DNA of 64,000 bases from Solibacteraceae bacterium (GTDB taxonomy: Bacteria > Acidobacteriota > Terriglobia > Bryobacterales > Bryobacteraceae): NCBI GenBank assembly GCA_026984795.1, contig JALSRK010000038.1, positions 1 to 64,000 on the forward strand, given 5' to 3'. Below the pieces are notes generated by a model. It had not been told where the DNA came from and did not search any database. It saw only the letters and a list, made by a program, of their open reading frames with translations. Positions 13,603-23,537 of the stretch are shown here, one piece after another; within the stretch, counting starts at the first letter, position 1; the number at the start of each line of letters is the position of its first letter. Position numbers and translations under genes: made by a program.

Positions 13603-14493
13603 ATGGCTGCATGGCTCGCCAAGCTCCGCCTCACGCTCGAAATGATCAAGTTCGAGCACTCCGTCTTCGCCCTCCCTTTCGCCCTCACCGGCGCGCTGCT
13701 GGCGTTGAAAACGGTGGATTTCGCCGTCCCGGGCCTCGGCTGGAAGCTGCTGTGGATCGTCGTGGCCATGGTGAGCGCCCGCTCGGCCGCCATGACCTTC
13801 AACCGGATCCTCGACGCCGACATCGACGCCCGCAACCCGCGCACCGCCGGCCGCCACATTCCCGCGGGCATCCTCTCGAAGAGCTTCGCCTGGGCCTTCC
13901 TCGCCTCAGCCTCCGGCGTTTTCTTGATCGCCGCCCGGGCGCTGAATCCGCTCTGCTTCCGCCTGGCCCCGTTGGCCCTGGCGATCCTGTTCTTCTACTC
14001 CTTCACCAAGCGCTTCACCTCGTTCTCCCATCTGGTGCTGGGCTTCTGCCTCGGCGTTGCCCCGGCGGCGGCCTGGATCGCCATTACCGGCTCCCTCGAT
14101 CCCCGCATCCTGTGGCTCACCGCCGCGGTCACCCTCTGGACCGCCGGTTTCGACATCATCTACTCCTGCCAGGACTACGAGTTCGACGCCTCTGAGGGGC
14201 TGTTCAGCCTGCCGAGGCGCCTCGGCATCGCCGGCGCTTTGTGGGTCGCGCGCCTCTTCCACCTCGCCATGATCGCCTGCCTGCTCGTGTTGGCCCGCAG
14301 CTTCGAGCTCGGCGCCGCCAGCCTCGCCGGGGTGGTCTTCATCGCCGGCCTGCTCGCCTGGGAGCACCGGCTGGTGAAACCGGAGGATCTGAGCAAAGTG
14401 GACGCCGCCTTCTTCACGGTCAACGGCTACGTGAGCGTGCTATTCTTCTTTTTTTGGGCCGCCGATATCCTGTGGCTTGGGCGAGGGGCATGA
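13603..14493 (+). CDS. mqnP: UbiA-family prenyltransferase, probable MqnP of futalosine menaquinone synthesis
   Basis: The 296-residue integral membrane protein has about eight to nine hydrophobic segments and the two aspartate-rich UbiA motifs: NRILDADIDARNPRT (about 67-81) and DIIYSCQDYEFD (about 184-195). UbiA enzymes attach a polyprenyl chain to an aromatic acid at the membrane. Because it overlaps mqnE by four bases (ATGA), it is best read as the prenyltransferase of the futalosine route acting on 1,4-dihydroxy-6-naphthoate, rather than a ubiquinone enzyme. Substrate assignment is by context. Confidence 0.88.
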   Translation: MAAWLAKLRLTLEMIKFEHSVFALPFALTGALLALKTVDFAVPGLGWKLLWIVVAMVSARSAAMTFNRILDADIDARNPRTAGRHIPAGILSKSFAWAFLASASGVFLIAARALNPLCFRLAPLALAILFFYSFTKRFTSFSHLVLGFCLGVAPAAAWIAITGSLDPRILWLTAAVTLWTAGFDIIYSCQDYEFDASEGLFSLPRRLGIAGALWVARLFHLAMIACLLVLARSFELGAASLAGVVFIAGLLAWEHRLVKPEDLSKVDAAFFTVNGYVSVLFFFFWAADILWLGRGA

Positions 14494-15614
14494 GCAAACG
14501 GCCGATCTTCGAGGACCAGCGCCTGCAAGCGATCCTGGCGCGCGTCGAGGCCGGCGAACGCCTCGGCTTCGAAGACGGCCTCGTGCTCTACCGCACGCCG
14601 GACCTGCTCGGCGCCGGCTACATCGCCAACCGCGTCCGCGAGCGCTTGCACGGCAACGTCACCTACTTCAACGTCAACCGCCACATCAACCCCACCGACG
14701 TCTGCGTGGCGAGCTGCCGCCTCTGCGCCTTCGGCAAGCGCCCCAAGGACCCGAAAGCTTACACCATGTCCCTCGAGCAGGTCTGGGAAACCGCCGGGCG
14801 GGGCTATTCGGAAGCCATCACCGAGTTCCACATCGTCGGCGGGCTCCACCCCACCCTCACCCTCGACTGGTACTGCCAGATGCTCCGCGGCCTGAAGCAA
14901 CGCTTCCCCGCCGTCCACCTGAAAGCGCTGACCATGGTCGAGGTCGCCTACCTGGCCAAACGCACCGGCTGCCCGGTCCGCGAGGCTCTCCAGCGCCTCA
15001 AGGACGCCGGGCTCGACTCGATGCCCGGCGGCGGCGCCGAAATCTTCAACGACCGCGTCCGCCGCATCATCTGCGACCACAAGATCGACGGCAACCAGTG
15101 GCTCGAGGTGGCCCGCGAGGCCCACCGCCTCGGCATCAAGTCCAACTGCACCATGCTCTACGGCCACATCGAGAACGAAGAGGACCGGGTGGACCACCTG
15201 CTGCGCCTGCGGGCGCTGCAGGAGGAAACCGGCGGCTTCGTCGCCTTCATCCCCCTCGCCTTCCACCCCGAAAACACCCCCCTCCAGCACCTGCCGCCGA
15301 CCACCGGGTTCGCCGATCTGAAGAACATCGCTGTGGCCCGGCTCCTGCTCGACAACATCCCCCACATCAAGGCTTATTGGGTGATGATGACGCCCCGCAT
15401 CGCCCAGATCGCCCAGCGCTTCGGCGCCGACGACATCGACGGCACCGTGGTCGAGGAGAAGATCTACCACGACGCCGGCGCCACCACCCGCCAGGCCTTG
15501 CGGCGCGAGGAGCTGCTCACCCTGATCCGAAAAGCCGGCCGGGAACCCGTTGAACGTGACACGCTCTACCGGCCCGTCCAGCGCACCGAATCCACCTTCA
15601 CCGTCGTGGTGTGA
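14490..15614 (+). CDS. mqnE: Aminodeoxyfutalosine synthase MqnE (radical SAM)
   Basis: The 374-residue protein carries the radical-SAM cluster motif CVASCRLC (C72, C76, C79) and family-typical segments VTYFNVNRHINPTDVC, TEFHIVGGLHPTL, MPGGGAEIF and FIPLAFHPENTPLQ. MqnE joins 3-[(1-carboxyvinyl)oxy]benzoate to SAM to make aminodeoxyfutalosine, the entry reaction of the futalosine pathway to menaquinone. I start at the ATG at 14490, which overlaps the stop of the prenyltransferase gene (ATGA) and follows GAGGGG. The downstream gene overlaps as GTGA, so the three are translationally coupled. Confidence 0.95.
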   Translation: MSKRPIFEDQRLQAILARVEAGERLGFEDGLVLYRTPDLLGAGYIANRVRERLHGNVTYFNVNRHINPTDVCVASCRLCAFGKRPKDPKAYTMSLEQVWETAGRGYSEAITEFHIVGGLHPTLTLDWYCQMLRGLKQRFPAVHLKALTMVEVAYLAKRTGCPVREALQRLKDAGLDSMPGGGAEIFNDRVRRIICDHKIDGNQWLEVAREAHRLGIKSNCTMLYGHIENEEDRVDHLLRLRALQEETGGFVAFIPLAFHPENTPLQHLPPTTGFADLKNIAVARLLLDNIPHIKAYWVMMTPRIAQIAQRFGADDIDGTVVEEKIYHDAGATTRQALRREELLTLIRKAGREPVERDTLYRPVQRTESTFTVVV

Positions 15615-16240: not shown

Positions 16241-16778
16241 TATAGAGGACCGAGTCGGGAAACGAAGCCGTGTTGAAGTAGAAGAAGCCGTAAGCGAAAT
16301 CGCCCGGCGGCAGCATCTTGGCGCTGAAAGCGCGGGACTCGATCTCGAAGGCGGCCAGGGGATTCTTCTTACGCCTCCCAAGACCGGGAATCGGATACCG
16401 CGGCGTCATGACCCCCGGCTTCGGCCGCTCGACACCATAAAGAAAGCGCACCTCGTCGGCCGGAATCGCCTGAATCCGGCGGCTGTCCGGCCGGATGTAT
16501 TCCACCCTCATCCCGTCCAGCCGCAGCGCCTTGTCCGAGTCGTTCTGCATCACCACCAGCACCGGCAGCACCCCATAGCGGTTCGGGTTCAGCTTCCCGA
16601 AGGCGGTCTTCGTCTCCTTGGCCGTAGTGAAGGCGTCGGCGGCGATGGTGAGGCCGGCCACCGTCTGGCGGTTCGGGTATTCCGCCGCCGGCTTGGGATG
16701 GAATGCGACCGGTTTATCCGCCCGCAACAGGACGACTATACTCAGTAGGAGTATCAAGCTATTGAGACGGACGCTCAT
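16176..16778 (-). CDS. Exported hypothetical protein
   Basis: The 200-residue protein has a signal peptide (SLILLLSIVVLLRA) and a predicted beta-rich domain with segments such as PVLVVMQNDSDKALRLDGM and GYFFYFNTASF-like FFYFNTASFPDSVLYITG. I do not recognise a family; the layout resembles exported proteins that describe optional conserved residues around an Ig-like fold. GAGGTAA precedes the ATG. Its 3' end overlaps the histidine phosphatase gene by 65 bases, and its 5' end overlaps the proposed TTG start of the divergent waaA-lpxK gene by 17 bases. Confidence 0.75.
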   Translation of the reverse strand: MSVRLNSLILLLSIVVLLRADKPVAFHPKPAAEYPNRQTVAGLTIAADAFTTAKETKTAFGKLNPNRYGVLPVLVVMQNDSDKALRLDGMRVEYIRPDSRRIQAIPADEVRFLYGVERPKPGVMTPRYPIPGLGRRKKNPLAAFEIESRAFSAKMLPPGDFAYGFFYFNTASFPDSVLYITGIVEAATGQELFYFEIPLE

Positions 16779-19209
16779 TTACCTCGTCTACCGCCTGTTC
16801 CAGATCGTCGCTTTCCCTTGCCTTGTAGTTTATCTGCTGGCGCGCGGATGGCGGGATCCCCGCTACTTCTCCCGCATCTGGGAGCGGCTCGGCTTCCTCC
16901 CGCATGCGTTTCAGGGGACGGCCCCCGGAGCCGTCTGGTTGCACGCGGTCTCTGTCGGCGAAGTCATGTCCGCCCTGCGGCTGCTTAGAGGGCTCCGGGC
17001 CGAGTACCGCGCCCGCCGGATCTTCGTTTCCGTCACCACGCTTGCCGGCCGGGAGCTGGCCGAGGAAAAGCTCAAGGGCCTGGTGGACGGCGTCTTCTAC
17101 GCTCCCATCGACTACTGTTTCGCCGTCCGCAACGTGCTCCGCGTGCTGCGGCCCTCGGTCGTTGTCATCCTCGAAACCGAGATTTGGCCCAACTGGTACC
17201 GGGAGATCAAACGGACCGGCGCCGGGCTGCTCGTCGCCAACGGCCGGATCTCCGACAAGGCCTGGCCCCGTTACCGGCGGTGGCGGTGGTTTTGGCGGGT
17301 GGTCCTGCCGCATGCCGACGCCATCCTGGCCCAGAGCTCCCAGGCCGCTGCCCGGTTTCGCGAACTCGGCGCTCCTGCGGCACGCGTGCGGCACGCCGGA
17401 AACCTGAAGTACGACTTCGAGACCGCCGGGGCCAGAGCCCCGGAGCCCGTGCGCCGGCTCATCGAAAGGTGCTCGCCGGCTTGCGTCTGGATCGCCGCCA
17501 GCACGATGCCCCCCGCCCGGCCCGGGGATGTAGACGAAGACGACGCCGTCATCGCCGCTTTCCAGCAGCTCGCGGCGGAGCGCCGGGACCTACTGCTCAT
17601 CCTGGCCCCGCGGCGGCCGGCCCGTTTCGCCGTCGTCGCCGACAAGCTGAAACGGGCGGGCTTGCCGTTCCTGCGCCGCTCGGCCCTGGGCGAGCGAGAC
17701 CGCCTGCCCCTGCCCGGCGTCCTGTTGCTCGATACCATCGGAGAACTCTACAGCCTGTTTCCACTGGCCGACGTGGTCTTCATGGGCGGCACGCTGGCCG
17801 ACCGAGGCGGGCACAACCTTTTGGAGCCGGCCTTCTTCGCCCGGCCCGTCATCGCCGGCCCCCACCTGGAGAACTTCGCCGAAATCGCCCGGGAGTTTCG
17901 CGAAGCCGGCGCCGTCGTCTCTGTCGGGGGTCCCCAGGAGCTGGGTCCAGCGGTCGAACGTCTCCTCACCGACTCTGCTCTCCGGGAGACGGTCGGCCGG
18001 CGGGCCTTCGAGATCGCGCGGAGCAAGAGCGGCGCGGTCAAGGCCGTCATCGACGAAGTCGGACGGCTGAGCCGCTGGTCCATCGTGCGGCCGGTCCCCA
18101 CCTGGCCGGCGTGGCTGCTCCTCAAGCCGCTCTCCTGGGTGTGGCTCGCCGGAGTGACATGGCGGCGCGCCCGCGCGCTCCGCCGTCGGCGGCGTCTCAG
18201 CGTTCCGGTAGTGAGCATCGGTGGACTGGGCGTCGGGGGCGCCGGCAAGACTCCGTTCACCGTCCACCTCGCTCGGCGTCTCCATGAGGGGGGCCGACAC
18301 GTGGCCGTCCTCACCCGCGGCTACCGCCGCCGCGTCCCTGAAAAGATGACGGTCCTGGAGGCCGATTCCTCAGCGCCCGTCTCCGTCACCGGCGATGAAG
18401 CGCAATTGATTCTGCGGGCCGGCGTCGCCCATCTGGGCATCGGAGCCGACCGCTACCGCACCGGCCGTCTCGTCGAGCAACGCTTCCACCCCGACGTGAT
18501 CCTGCTCGACGATGGGTTCCAACACTGGCAACTCCACCGTGACCTCGACATCGTCCTCATCGATGCACTGAACCCCTGGTGCGACGGCGACCTGCTTCCC
18601 CTGGGACGTCTGCGCGAGCCCCTCTCCGCCCTGCGGCGCGCCGGCCTGTTCGTGATCACCCGGGCCGAGCCCGGCACCCCCCTGGACGGCATCCGCGCTC
18701 GCCTCGAGGAGCTGAATCCCCAGGCCCCAGTATTCCAGTCCCGCATGCGTCCGAAACAGTGGATCGATGCCGGCTCGGGAAACCGTGTGGCCTGCGGCGC
18801 TCTCCGCTCCCGACCCAACGCCGCCTTCTGCGCCCTCGCCAACCCGGCTTCGTTCTGGCGGACACTCTCCGGGCTGGGCTGCCGGCCCCTGCGCTGCTGG
18901 AAGTTCACTGACCACCACCACTACAAGCCCCGGGAGCTCAAACGCATGGCCGCCGATGCGAGGGCTGCCGGCGCCGAGGTCTTGCTGACCACGGAAAAGG
19001 ATTTCATGAACCTTCCTCCGGGCGCGGCGAACCTCGTGGCTCCGCTCCGCCTGCTCTGGCTCCAGGCGGAAGTCGAAGTGGACCGCGAGGCCGAACTGCT
19101 CGATCTCCTCGATCGCCGCCTCCGCACCGCCGGAGCACACCCCGAAACGCCGGATGCCGCCCTCCGCGCGCGCGTCGCCTCCAGCCCCAGCCGGCCCCCC
19201 GGCCGCTGA
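16762..19209 (+). CDS. waaA-lpxK: Fused Kdo transferase WaaA and tetraacyldisaccharide 4'-kinase LpxK
   Basis: One uninterrupted 815-residue reading frame encodes two lipid A pathway enzymes. Residues 1-440 are WaaA/KdtA: N-terminal membrane anchor (LIYLVYRLFQIVAFPCLVVY), HAVSVGEV with catalytic E67, LETEIWPNWYRE and FMGGTLADRGGHNLLEPA. Residues about 445-790 are LpxK: P-loop VGGAGKTP with K496 and DDGFQHW at 583-589. LpxK phosphorylates the lipid A disaccharide precursor; WaaA adds Kdo from CMP-Kdo. No in-frame ATG fits, so I propose TTG at 16762 preceded by AGGAG (16747-16751). Both catalytic sets look intact. The tail after 790 is disordered. Confidence 0.92.
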   Translation: MRRTLIYLVYRLFQIVAFPCLVVYLLARGWRDPRYFSRIWERLGFLPHAFQGTAPGAVWLHAVSVGEVMSALRLLRGLRAEYRARRIFVSVTTLAGRELAEEKLKGLVDGVFYAPIDYCFAVRNVLRVLRPSVVVILETEIWPNWYREIKRTGAGLLVANGRISDKAWPRYRRWRWFWRVVLPHADAILAQSSQAAARFRELGAPAARVRHAGNLKYDFETAGARAPEPVRRLIERCSPACVWIAASTMPPARPGDVDEDDAVIAAFQQLAAERRDLLLILAPRRPARFAVVADKLKRAGLPFLRRSALGERDRLPLPGVLLLDTIGELYSLFPLADVVFMGGTLADRGGHNLLEPAFFARPVIAGPHLENFAEIAREFREAGAVVSVGGPQELGPAVERLLTDSALRETVGRRAFEIARSKSGAVKAVIDEVGRLSRWSIVRPVPTWPAWLLLKPLSWVWLAGVTWRRARALRRRRRLSVPVVSIGGLGVGGAGKTPFTVHLARRLHEGGRHVAVLTRGYRRRVPEKMTVLEADSSAPVSVTGDEAQLILRAGVAHLGIGADRYRTGRLVEQRFHPDVILLDDGFQHWQLHRDLDIVLIDALNPWCDGDLLPLGRLREPLSALRRAGLFVITRAEPGTPLDGIRARLEELNPQAPVFQSRMRPKQWIDAGSGNRVACGALRSRPNAAFCALANPASFWRTLSGLGCRPLRCWKFTDHHHYKPRELKRMAADARAAGAEVLLTTEKDFMNLPPGAANLVAPLRLLWLQAEVEVDREAELLDLLDRRLRTAGAHPETPDAALRARVASSPSRPPGR

Positions 19210-22040: not shown

Positions 22041-23537
22041 TTAATCTTTCTCGAGCGCCTTGGTCCACCGTTCGAGCTGCTTGCGCGCCAGGTCGCGGCC
22101 GCCGATGCCAAAGGCGATCGCCGCCGCCACCGCCACCGCACCCAACGTAAGCCCGAACGCCAGGCTGATGATCTCGTTCGCCAGGCCCATCTGGCGGAGG
22201 GCCATGGCGCCGGTCAGCAGCAGAATCGCCACCCGCGTGAGTCCCGCGAGCAGGCTGGCATGAGCCCCACCAGCCGACCTCACGGCTCCGGCGGCAAAAT
22301 TGGCCAGGAAAAGACCGAGGCCGAACACCACCAGGCCGAGAGCGATATGGCCGGCCAGCTCGAGCAGATCCGTCAGAATCTGCGACAGCCTCGCGAACCC
22401 CAGCATGTCGCTGGCTTCGATGGCCGCAAACGTCAGCAAGGCCGCCATCACCAGCGTCCCTACCAATTCGGAGGGTTTCCGGCTGTCCTCTTCGGCCGCG
22501 CCGCCCAGCCCCAGGCGGCCCATCAGCCCGTCAAAGCCCACTCCGGCGAGCAGATTCGCCACCAGGCCGGCCACGAGGCGGGCGATGACGTAGGCGACCG
22601 TCAGCAGAAGCGCCGCCCCGAACAGTTGCGGCACCGCCGCCAGCAACGCGTTCAGCATGTTCGACGCCGGAGCTGTCAGCGACTCCAATCCCAGGGCGTT
22701 CAAGGAAGCGATCAATATGGGGATGAGGATCAGCACGTAGGCGATGAGCCCCACCAACCCGGAGAGCTTCTGCTCGCCGAGGACGGTGGCGAGCCCTACC
22801 CGTTCGCCCAGCCGGTCCAGACCGGCCGCCGCCAGCAGGTTTGTCACGATCCGGCGGACGATCCGGGCCAGGAACCACCCGACGAACAGCGTCACCCCCG
22901 CGGCAACCATGTTCGGCAGGAAGCTCAGAAACTTATCGAGCATCGCCTGCACCGGCGCGAGGATGCCCTCGAGCGACAGGGCGCCAAGAATGGCCGGCAG
23001 GAACAGCAGGAACACCAGCCAATAGAGCGCATCAGCCAGGGTGTCCGATAGAGGGACCTTCTCCTCCTCGGCCAGGCCCGCTTCGGCCGAGAGCTTGTCG
23101 TCGATGCGCGTCGCGTCCAGCACCCGGCGCACCACCATCCGCACGATCGTCGCTACCAGCCAGGCGGCCACCGTGAGCGCCAGCGCGCCGAGAACCCGTG
23201 GAGCGAACTCGAAGATCCGCGTCAACAAGCGGTTGAGCGGCTCGGTGATCACCGTCAGCCCGAGCGTCTGGAAGAATCCGATCAGCACGAACAACATCAC
23301 CAGGTAGTAAACGCACCGGGCGATCCAGGCCTCGAGATCGATGGCCTCGACCTTTTCCTCTCCGGCGATCCACTTGGCGATGCGGTCGTCGATCGTCGTC
23401 CGTTTCAGCAGGGCCCGGACAACGGCGGCGATTGCCAGAGCCACCAGCCACCCGACCACCAGCACCACTACGGCCGCGGCCAGCCGCGGCAGATACGGAC
23501 CCACAACAGCAACTAGAGATTCGCGAATCGACTCCAT
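22041..23537 (-). CDS. Conserved TM-helix-repeat membrane protein, mechanosensitive-channel-like
   Basis: The 498-residue protein contains repeated 'conserved TM helix' units: hydrophobic helices each followed by a charged turn and helix (VVGWLVALAIAAVVRALLK, AWLVATIVRMVVRRVL, FVGWFLARIVRRIVTNLL, YVIARLVAGLVANLL). This repeat is related to the pore-lining helix of MscS-type channels, but no MscS beta domain is present. The spacing gives about 10-11 membrane segments. It is probably a channel or membrane scaffold of unknown gating. GGAGG precedes the ATG at 23537. Confidence 0.85.
   Translation of the reverse strand: MESIRESLVAVVGPYLPRLAAAVVVLVVGWLVALAIAAVVRALLKRTTIDDRIAKWIAGEEKVEAIDLEAWIARCVYYLVMLFVLIGFFQTLGLTVITEPLNRLLTRIFEFAPRVLGALALTVAAWLVATIVRMVVRRVLDATRIDDKLSAEAGLAEEEKVPLSDTLADALYWLVFLLFLPAILGALSLEGILAPVQAMLDKFLSFLPNMVAAGVTLFVGWFLARIVRRIVTNLLAAAGLDRLGERVGLATVLGEQKLSGLVGLIAYVLILIPILIASLNALGLESLTAPASNMLNALLAAVPQLFGAALLLTVAYVIARLVAGLVANLLAGVGFDGLMGRLGLGGAAEEDSRKPSELVGTLVMAALLTFAAIEASDMLGFARLSQILTDLLELAGHIALGLVVFGLGLFLANFAAGAVRSAGGAHASLLAGLTRVAILLLTGAMALRQMGLANEIISLAFGLTLGAVAVAAAIAFGIGGRDLARKQLERWTKALEKD

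Follow-up and report, generated by a model that had tools for sequence, protein, structure and literature searches.

A single-gene fusion of WaaA and LpxK in Bryobacterales

LpxK and WaaA catalyse consecutive steps in the synthesis of the outer-membrane lipid of Gram-negative bacteria, and are normally separate proteins. In a 64,000-nucleotide stretch of the genome of a Solibacteraceae bacterium (contig JALSRK010000038.1, positions 1 to 64,000; hereafter, the window), we observed that both enzymes are encoded by one gene, waaA-lpxK. The analysis confirmed that this architecture is a real single-gene fusion with both domains complete. Very probably, the product is one bifunctional membrane-surface enzyme, which first phosphorylates the lipid A disaccharide and next attaches 3-deoxy-D-manno-octulosonic acid (Kdo), and which was born by loss of the stop codon between two neighbouring genes. 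The chemistry and the folds involved are already known; the fused architecture appears to be the new part.

The fused gene and its two domains

The frame is uninterrupted from the TTG at 16762 through the TGA at 19207–19209 (Table 1), which bears out the single WaaA-LpxK frame of 815 codons claimed in the original prediction. Both Pfam domains are complete: PF04413 spans residues 38–218 (E-value 1.4e-54; 184.8 bits, above the curated cut-off of 23.9) and PF02606 spans residues 452–787 (E-value 2.7e-79; 267.1 bits, above the cut-off of 27). The LpxK model TIGR00682 also passed its cut-off (167.9 vs. 91.95), and the match to the narrower LpxK model NF001892.0 was below its own (96.3 vs. 327). 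The genome of the window (5.23 Mb, 96.8% complete, 77 contigs) contains one match each to the WaaA and LpxK families, both within the fused gene. A search for four more enzymes of the pathway, namely LpxC, LpxB, an LpxL-type acyltransferase and KdsB, which makes cytidine monophosphate (CMP)-Kdo, gave one match above cut-off for each.

Table 1. Coordinates of the fused gene, its parts and its divergent neighbour in the window.
Feature	Position	Strand	Remarks
Fused waaA-lpxK gene	16762–19209	+	815 codons, TTG start, then TGA
Shine-Dalgarno-like AGGAG	16747–16751	+	10 nucleotides 5' of the TTG start
WaaA half, residues 1–439	16762–18078	+	N-terminal helix 2–31, then glycosyltransferase B (GT-B) fold; Pfam, model and PDB match
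WaaA catalytic Glu E67	16960–16962	+	aligns with E31 of Aquifex WaaA
Junction/linker, residues 439–448	18076–18105	+	AlphaFold2 model and alignment of 73 fused loci
LpxK half, residues 449–790	18106–19131	+	Pfam and PDB matches; includes N-terminal helix
LpxK P-loop Lys K496	18247–18249	+	aligns with K51 of Aquifex LpxK
Divergent conserved neighbour, about 200 residues	16176–16778	-	head to head with the fused gene; hydrophobic N-terminus, probably secreted

The residues of both active sites were compared with those of the Aquifex enzymes and followed through the order's 53 loci, 51 of which are distinct (two genes were fetched twice: L005/L037 and L032/L040). E31, E98, K162, R212, N273 and E276 of Aquifex WaaA correspond to E67, E138, K216, R284, N352 and E355 in the window, the numbering being matched by hand on the alignment with the Aquifex chain and, for N273 and E276, by motif only. 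All six are invariant in 53/53 loci. K51, D99/E100, D138/D139 (Walker B) and H261 of Aquifex LpxK correspond to K496, D545/E546, D583/D584 and H718; K496, E546 and D584 are likewise invariant, and H718 is a histidine in 52 loci and a gap in one. E67, the P-loop lysine K496 and the motif DDGFQHW, which the original prediction had pointed out, are all present where it placed them. The roles of the compared residues, including the importance of E31, were taken from the consulted sections of a review (PMC6286764). Judging from this conservation, both halves are probably active.

The AlphaFold2 model, obtained from an input alignment of 57 sequences (18 of them fused), is a confident two-domain protein, with a predicted local distance difference test score (pLDDT) of 94.5, a predicted template modelling score (pTM) of 0.91 and values of 94–97 in the linker blocks. 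The modelled linker sits between the last WaaA helix (425–439) and the first LpxK helix (448–474). Each half keeps an N-terminal helix, at residues 2–31 in WaaA and 448–474 in LpxK. The latter aligns from residue 1 of the LpxK structure 4ehx and is a putative membrane-associating helix; the N-terminal helix of LpxK likely mediates membrane association, according to the sections consulted of PMC6286764.

Distribution and origins of the fusion

The search covered 61 genomes. Besides that of the window, these were 36 from the same family, 20 from elsewhere in the order and 4 from elsewhere in the class. We call the order Bryobacterales after its named fused relatives, which are titled Bryobacter, Bryobacteraceae, Bryobacterales or Solibacteraceae (three only "Acidobacteriales" or "Acidobacteriota"). 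The frame is open across the junction in 51 of the 57 order-level genomes, as read in the DNA of each of the 51; the gene is nearly full length in 50 of them and cut by a contig end within LpxK in the other (G003). Two more genomes (G011 and G016) have the gene cut at contig ends, with the junction outside the readable sequence, and four gave no match (G005, G039 and G054, at most 84% complete, and G019, 91% complete). No reversion to separate genes was found among the 51 order genomes with a readable junction. The fused architecture is common to the 53 loci of the order, and 9 further loci were read later. In the four genomes from other orders of the class, waaA and lpxK are separate in each case (in G058, two contigs each carry part of waaA).

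A sample of 396 Acidobacteriota genomes, scored for at most two candidates per genome, gave matches in 371; divergent fusions could escape such a scan. Among the full-frame matches listed, at least three of the window's family and at least one from another genome (locus L128 of G338) are truly fused. The matches listed include 24 full-span ones outside the family. When 23 of these were fetched (L114–L136), 22 proved to be same-frame neighbours with at least one in-frame stop between them, and one was fused (L128); the 24th (L175 of G072) consists of separate genes. A wider spread of fusions in Acidobacteriota was rejected, since 23 of the 24 full-span matches listed outside the family proved to be separate genes. 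As read, Acidobacteriota outside the order have waaA and lpxK adjacent and unfused, with L128 as the sole exception. Among the Acidobacteriota genomes read, the fusion is a lineage marker for the order of the window, with that one exception elsewhere in the phylum.

A second group of fusions was found in a scan of named genomes, which was baited with the fused protein and covered the best 80 of 153 loci, and is no census. Its fused loci fall into two sets: 10 are of the same kind as in the window, and 18 bear the titles Selenomonas, Selenomonadaceae or Selenomonadales. Every locus with such a title (18/18) is fused, including those of the named isolates Selenomonas ruminantium HD4 and ATCC 12561. 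The 52 unfused loci comprise 16 that hold both genes, separate, and 36 that show just one. In relatives of Selenomonas (Megasphaera, Pelosinus and one soil Bacillota metagenome-assembled genome) the genes are neighbouring and separate, and in Halothermothrix orenii lpxK and kdtA are given two gene numbers in the consulted part of PMC2626281. The linker of the Selenomonas type is the longer one: the distance from the HN of the WaaA GGHN motif to the P-loop is 166–174 residues in the 18 Selenomonas-type loci, as compared to 129–144 in the 53 loci of the order.

Trees were built from 119 of 180 loci, 60 of them fused. Near-identical, truncated and same-genome loci were removed by hand, loci lacking one gene fell out, and L185–L193, fetched later, were not included. 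In both the WaaA and the LpxK tree, the Selenomonas-type fusions are nested within separate Negativicutes genes and the fused group of the window is placed with Acidobacteriota. The WaaA tree unites the fusions of the order in a single clade (99, starred). The LpxK tree is less firm on this point, joining them with three separate genes of the same class in a supported group that has no settled branching inside it; in a 40-row LpxK tree, the clade of the order's fusions appears at 88, unstarred. Forcing the two fused groups together lowered the log-likelihood by 216 (WaaA) and 142 (LpxK). A single origin with transfer between Bryobacterales and the Selenomonas type was rejected by approximately unbiased (AU) tests (p of 2.3e-47 for WaaA and 2.9e-68 for LpxK), which were run on quick trees from 40 of the 119 rows, not counting L128 and L159. 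Because the trees keep the fused groups apart and the AU tests reject a single origin, the WaaA-LpxK fusion, judged by sequence, has at least two separate origins, with the same N-to-C-terminal order.

L128 (G338:C203, 1426–3903; 14.7 kb contig) belongs to another Acidobacteriota family. Its waaA and lpxK are fused through a longer linker, which contains a methionine; this may be one more fusion, of recent date, or a mistake in a single assembly. L159 (G031:C107, 572–2983) is a second, divergent fused gene with 36% identity, found on a 5.4 kb contig in a genome of the window's family. It was placed away from the order in the WaaA tree, and is likely contamination or a foreign copy. These two singletons might represent further origins or could be due to error or contamination. 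L160 (G030:C386, 265–2615, reverse strand) contains separate waaA and lpxK genes on a 3.9 kb contig, in a genome where the fused gene is present as well; it grouped with a family of the same class (f8) in both trees and is probably contamination.

As regards the separate pairs, 60 of 63 were near enough to measure, the other three being set aside as distant, and in those measured waaA lies directly before lpxK. The pairs include a few duplicates or near-copies (L137/L174 and L083/L094/L110), and the choice of the lpxK start was heuristic. The frame of lpxK relative to waaA is the same in 27 pairs, a number inflated by L114–L136, which were chosen for their shared frame; it is one other frame in 23 and the third in 10. 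In family f8, the best lpxK start overlaps the waaA stop by 4 nucleotides in 5/8 loci. The unfused relatives suggest an origin by stop loss between neighbours: the ancestor of the order would have lost the stop between neighbouring, nearly overlapping waaA and lpxK genes, and the fused gene would have been kept since.

Function of the fused protein and alternative explanations

The C-terminal LpxK half would phosphorylate the lipid A disaccharide, producing lipid IVA, the substrate for the N-terminal half; the WaaA half of the same chain would then move Kdo from CMP-Kdo onto it. LpxK must act first, because it is inactive on substrates already bearing Kdo and E. coli WaaA is poor on the disaccharide without the 4'-phosphate, which Aquifex WaaA can use to a lesser extent (PMC6286764, sections consulted). 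The same source fits the LpxK-then-WaaA order of the consecutive steps named in the original prediction. Since both halves keep their N-terminal helices, the fused protein is expected to sit at the inner membrane, its two sites both close to the lipid. The benefit would be a fixed 1:1 stoichiometry and closeness at this membrane. Direct channelling of lipid IVA, proposed in the original prediction, is no more than a possibility; lipid IVA is a membrane lipid, and neutral stop loss gives the same pattern.

Indeed, a neutral fusion is a serious rival as regards the benefit, though not as regards the single chain, and it falls only a little short of probable. According to this explanation, the stop was lost by accident, the fused enzyme is as good as the separate pair with no gain in channelling or regulation, and re-splitting is improbable. 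Separate relatives have an overlapping stop and start or an in-frame stop between the genes, so that few mutations suffice; the poor conservation of the linker sequence and the adjacent, unfused genes of the Acidobacteriota read outside the order, with their one exception, also agree with it. What speaks against it is that the fusion has at least two separate origins in distant groups, and that none of the 51 readable junctions of the order is re-split.

A more ambitious version of the bifunctional enzyme, which we regard as doubtful, is an adaptive, convergent module coupling 4'-phosphorylation and Kdo addition in Bryobacterales and Selenomonadaceae. The lipid sites of the two halves would face one membrane patch, free lipid IVA would be scarce, and there would be one control point. 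The points proposed as regulated in E. coli, in the sections consulted of PMC6286764, are LpxK flux and the turnover of WaaA by FtsH; if the coupled module is true, two E. coli-type control points would be one protein in Bryobacterales and Selenomonadaceae.

Several observations weigh against the main reading, a single bifunctional membrane-surface enzyme. The start codon of the gene is TTG rather than ATG, a weaker point in the case for the gene. The NCBIfam equivalog cut-offs for WaaA were missed by all five matching models (the best, NF004388.0, scored 333.9 vs. 438 bits), which may reflect lineage distance. In the LpxK half, D545 is replaced by glutamate in 4/53 loci of the order (aspartate in 49) and D583 by proline in 1/53 (aspartate in 52). 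The original prediction had looked for one polypeptide with a conserved linker across relatives: one frame was found across the order, but in the alignment of 73 fused loci the linker sequence differs between genera, and therefore shows no specific function. The junction of the close pair L156/L157 is under little constraint (nonsynonymous changes, pN, 0.087; synonymous changes, pS, 0.125). Finally, the fusions may share their N-to-C-terminal order because the separate pairs already have waaA before lpxK, and so the common order may reflect gene order and not selection.

That two proteins are made from one gene, with an internal start near the junction or a proteolytic cleavage yielding free LpxK beside or instead of the fusion, appears very unlikely. 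The junction has many in-frame ATG, GTG and TTG codons (the 53 loci have 241 between them, including 31 ATG), and its most widely shared start column, close to the LpxK start side, holds such a codon in 31/53 loci; elsewhere along the gene, however, control windows share start columns in up to 41/53. A start codon with a Shine-Dalgarno match of at least 4 occurs at the junction in 13/53 loci, within the range of 8 to 40 seen across 12 windows of the gene (one of these coincides in large part with the junction); for ATG alone, the count is 5/53, as compared to 0 to 22. In the window, the junction (residues 428–490) has no stop codon and its only in-frame starts are four GTGs (residues 442, 460, 465 and 484), all of which lack a Shine-Dalgarno match. 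The internal start or stop that would have spoken against the original prediction was thus looked for, and neither a stop nor a conserved internal start was found. An internal lpxK start was rejected for lack of enrichment at the junction, by a test low in power, a Shine-Dalgarno match being present in just 27 of the 60 genuine lpxK genes of the separate pairs. Synonymous changes predominate at the junction in L039/L167 (pN 0.069, pS 0.493) and in Selenomonas-type close pairs (pN 0.005–0.128, pS 0.20–0.85).

An assembly or sequencing error that erased a real stop codon, which the 77 contigs of the genome and the many metagenome-assembled relatives might bring to mind, is refuted by recurrence, because the same frame stands in 51/57 order genomes and an analogous fusion in named S. 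ruminantium isolates, and a frameshift error, the other objection foreseen, cannot explain a fusion seen in some 50 assemblies.

Neighbouring genes and comparison with known systems

The divergent neighbour of the fused gene matched no Pfam family. Its model is a beta-sandwich (pLDDT 82.7), with weak matches such as ApaG/Ig-like. With repeats removed, this gene adjoins the fusion in 50 of the 51 loci that are fused as in the window (the exception, L035, has almost no upstream DNA), as well as the separate waaA in 7 of the 11 same-class loci that hold both genes together. Because its linkage to waaA has long been kept, an envelope role is suggested. The TTG start of the fused gene and the ATG start of the neighbour share 17 nucleotides (16762–16778), and in 21/50 loci the start codons are exactly 16 nucleotides apart on opposite strands, with the same 17-nucleotide coding overlap; these starts were chosen from sequence only, and an alternative TTG of the neighbour would abolish the overlap.

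Elsewhere in the window, a UbiA-type prenyltransferase followed by a radical S-adenosylmethionine protein of the CofH-MqnC type (13603–15611, forward strand) form a pair that we take to be reminiscent of the futalosine route to menaquinone. A 498-residue protein is encoded on the reverse strand at 22041–23537; four stretches of it match PF05552, the conserved transmembrane helix of mechanosensitive channels.

No published description of a WaaA-LpxK fusion was found in the full-text literature searched, a scope that leaves most subscription papers and annotation databases outside; databases may well annotate the fused protein as bifunctional. A paper on the outer membranes of Firmicutes (PMC5007114) lists the genes as one cluster; in its main text, the words "lpxK" and "fused" are absent and the single "fusion" concerns OmpM. 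At the surface of the inner membrane, LpxK and WaaA work on a lipid one after the other. The recurrent natural fusion offers a single construct for asking whether lipid intermediates of lipopolysaccharide are handed over or diffuse.

The waaA-lpxK gene cluster described in PMC3087551 has the same genes in the same order, and their consecutive steps are stressed, but there the genes are separate. The consulted part of that paper names the fused lpxC/fabZ of Bacteroidetes, Chlorobi and Verrucomicrobia and mentions no waaA-lpxK fusion; the LpxC/FabZ fusion likewise joins neighbouring envelope-lipid genes, with other enzymes and in other lineages.

Compared with the WaaA (KdtA) of Aquifex aeolicus (PDB 2xci and 2xcu), the N-terminal half is alike in the GT-B fold, the catalytic glutamate, and the CMP-binding and other active-site residues; 2xci_B matches residues 34–439 of the model with Z 34.6 and a root mean square deviation (rmsd) of 3.8 over 352 aligned residues. 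The Aquifex enzyme is stand-alone, whereas the C-terminal helix of WaaA in the window continues via a short linker into LpxK. In the same way, the C-terminal half resembles A. aeolicus LpxK (PDB 4ehx, 4ehy and 4lkv) in the P-loop kinase fold, the Walker B DD, the catalytic histidine and the N-terminal helix, with matches of 4ehx to residues 449–788 (Z 31.7) and of 4ehy to residues 457–789 (Z 36.0, rmsd 2.1, 301 residues aligned). Aquifex LpxK is stand-alone and has a free N-terminus, whereas the N-terminal helix of LpxK in the window is tethered to WaaA.

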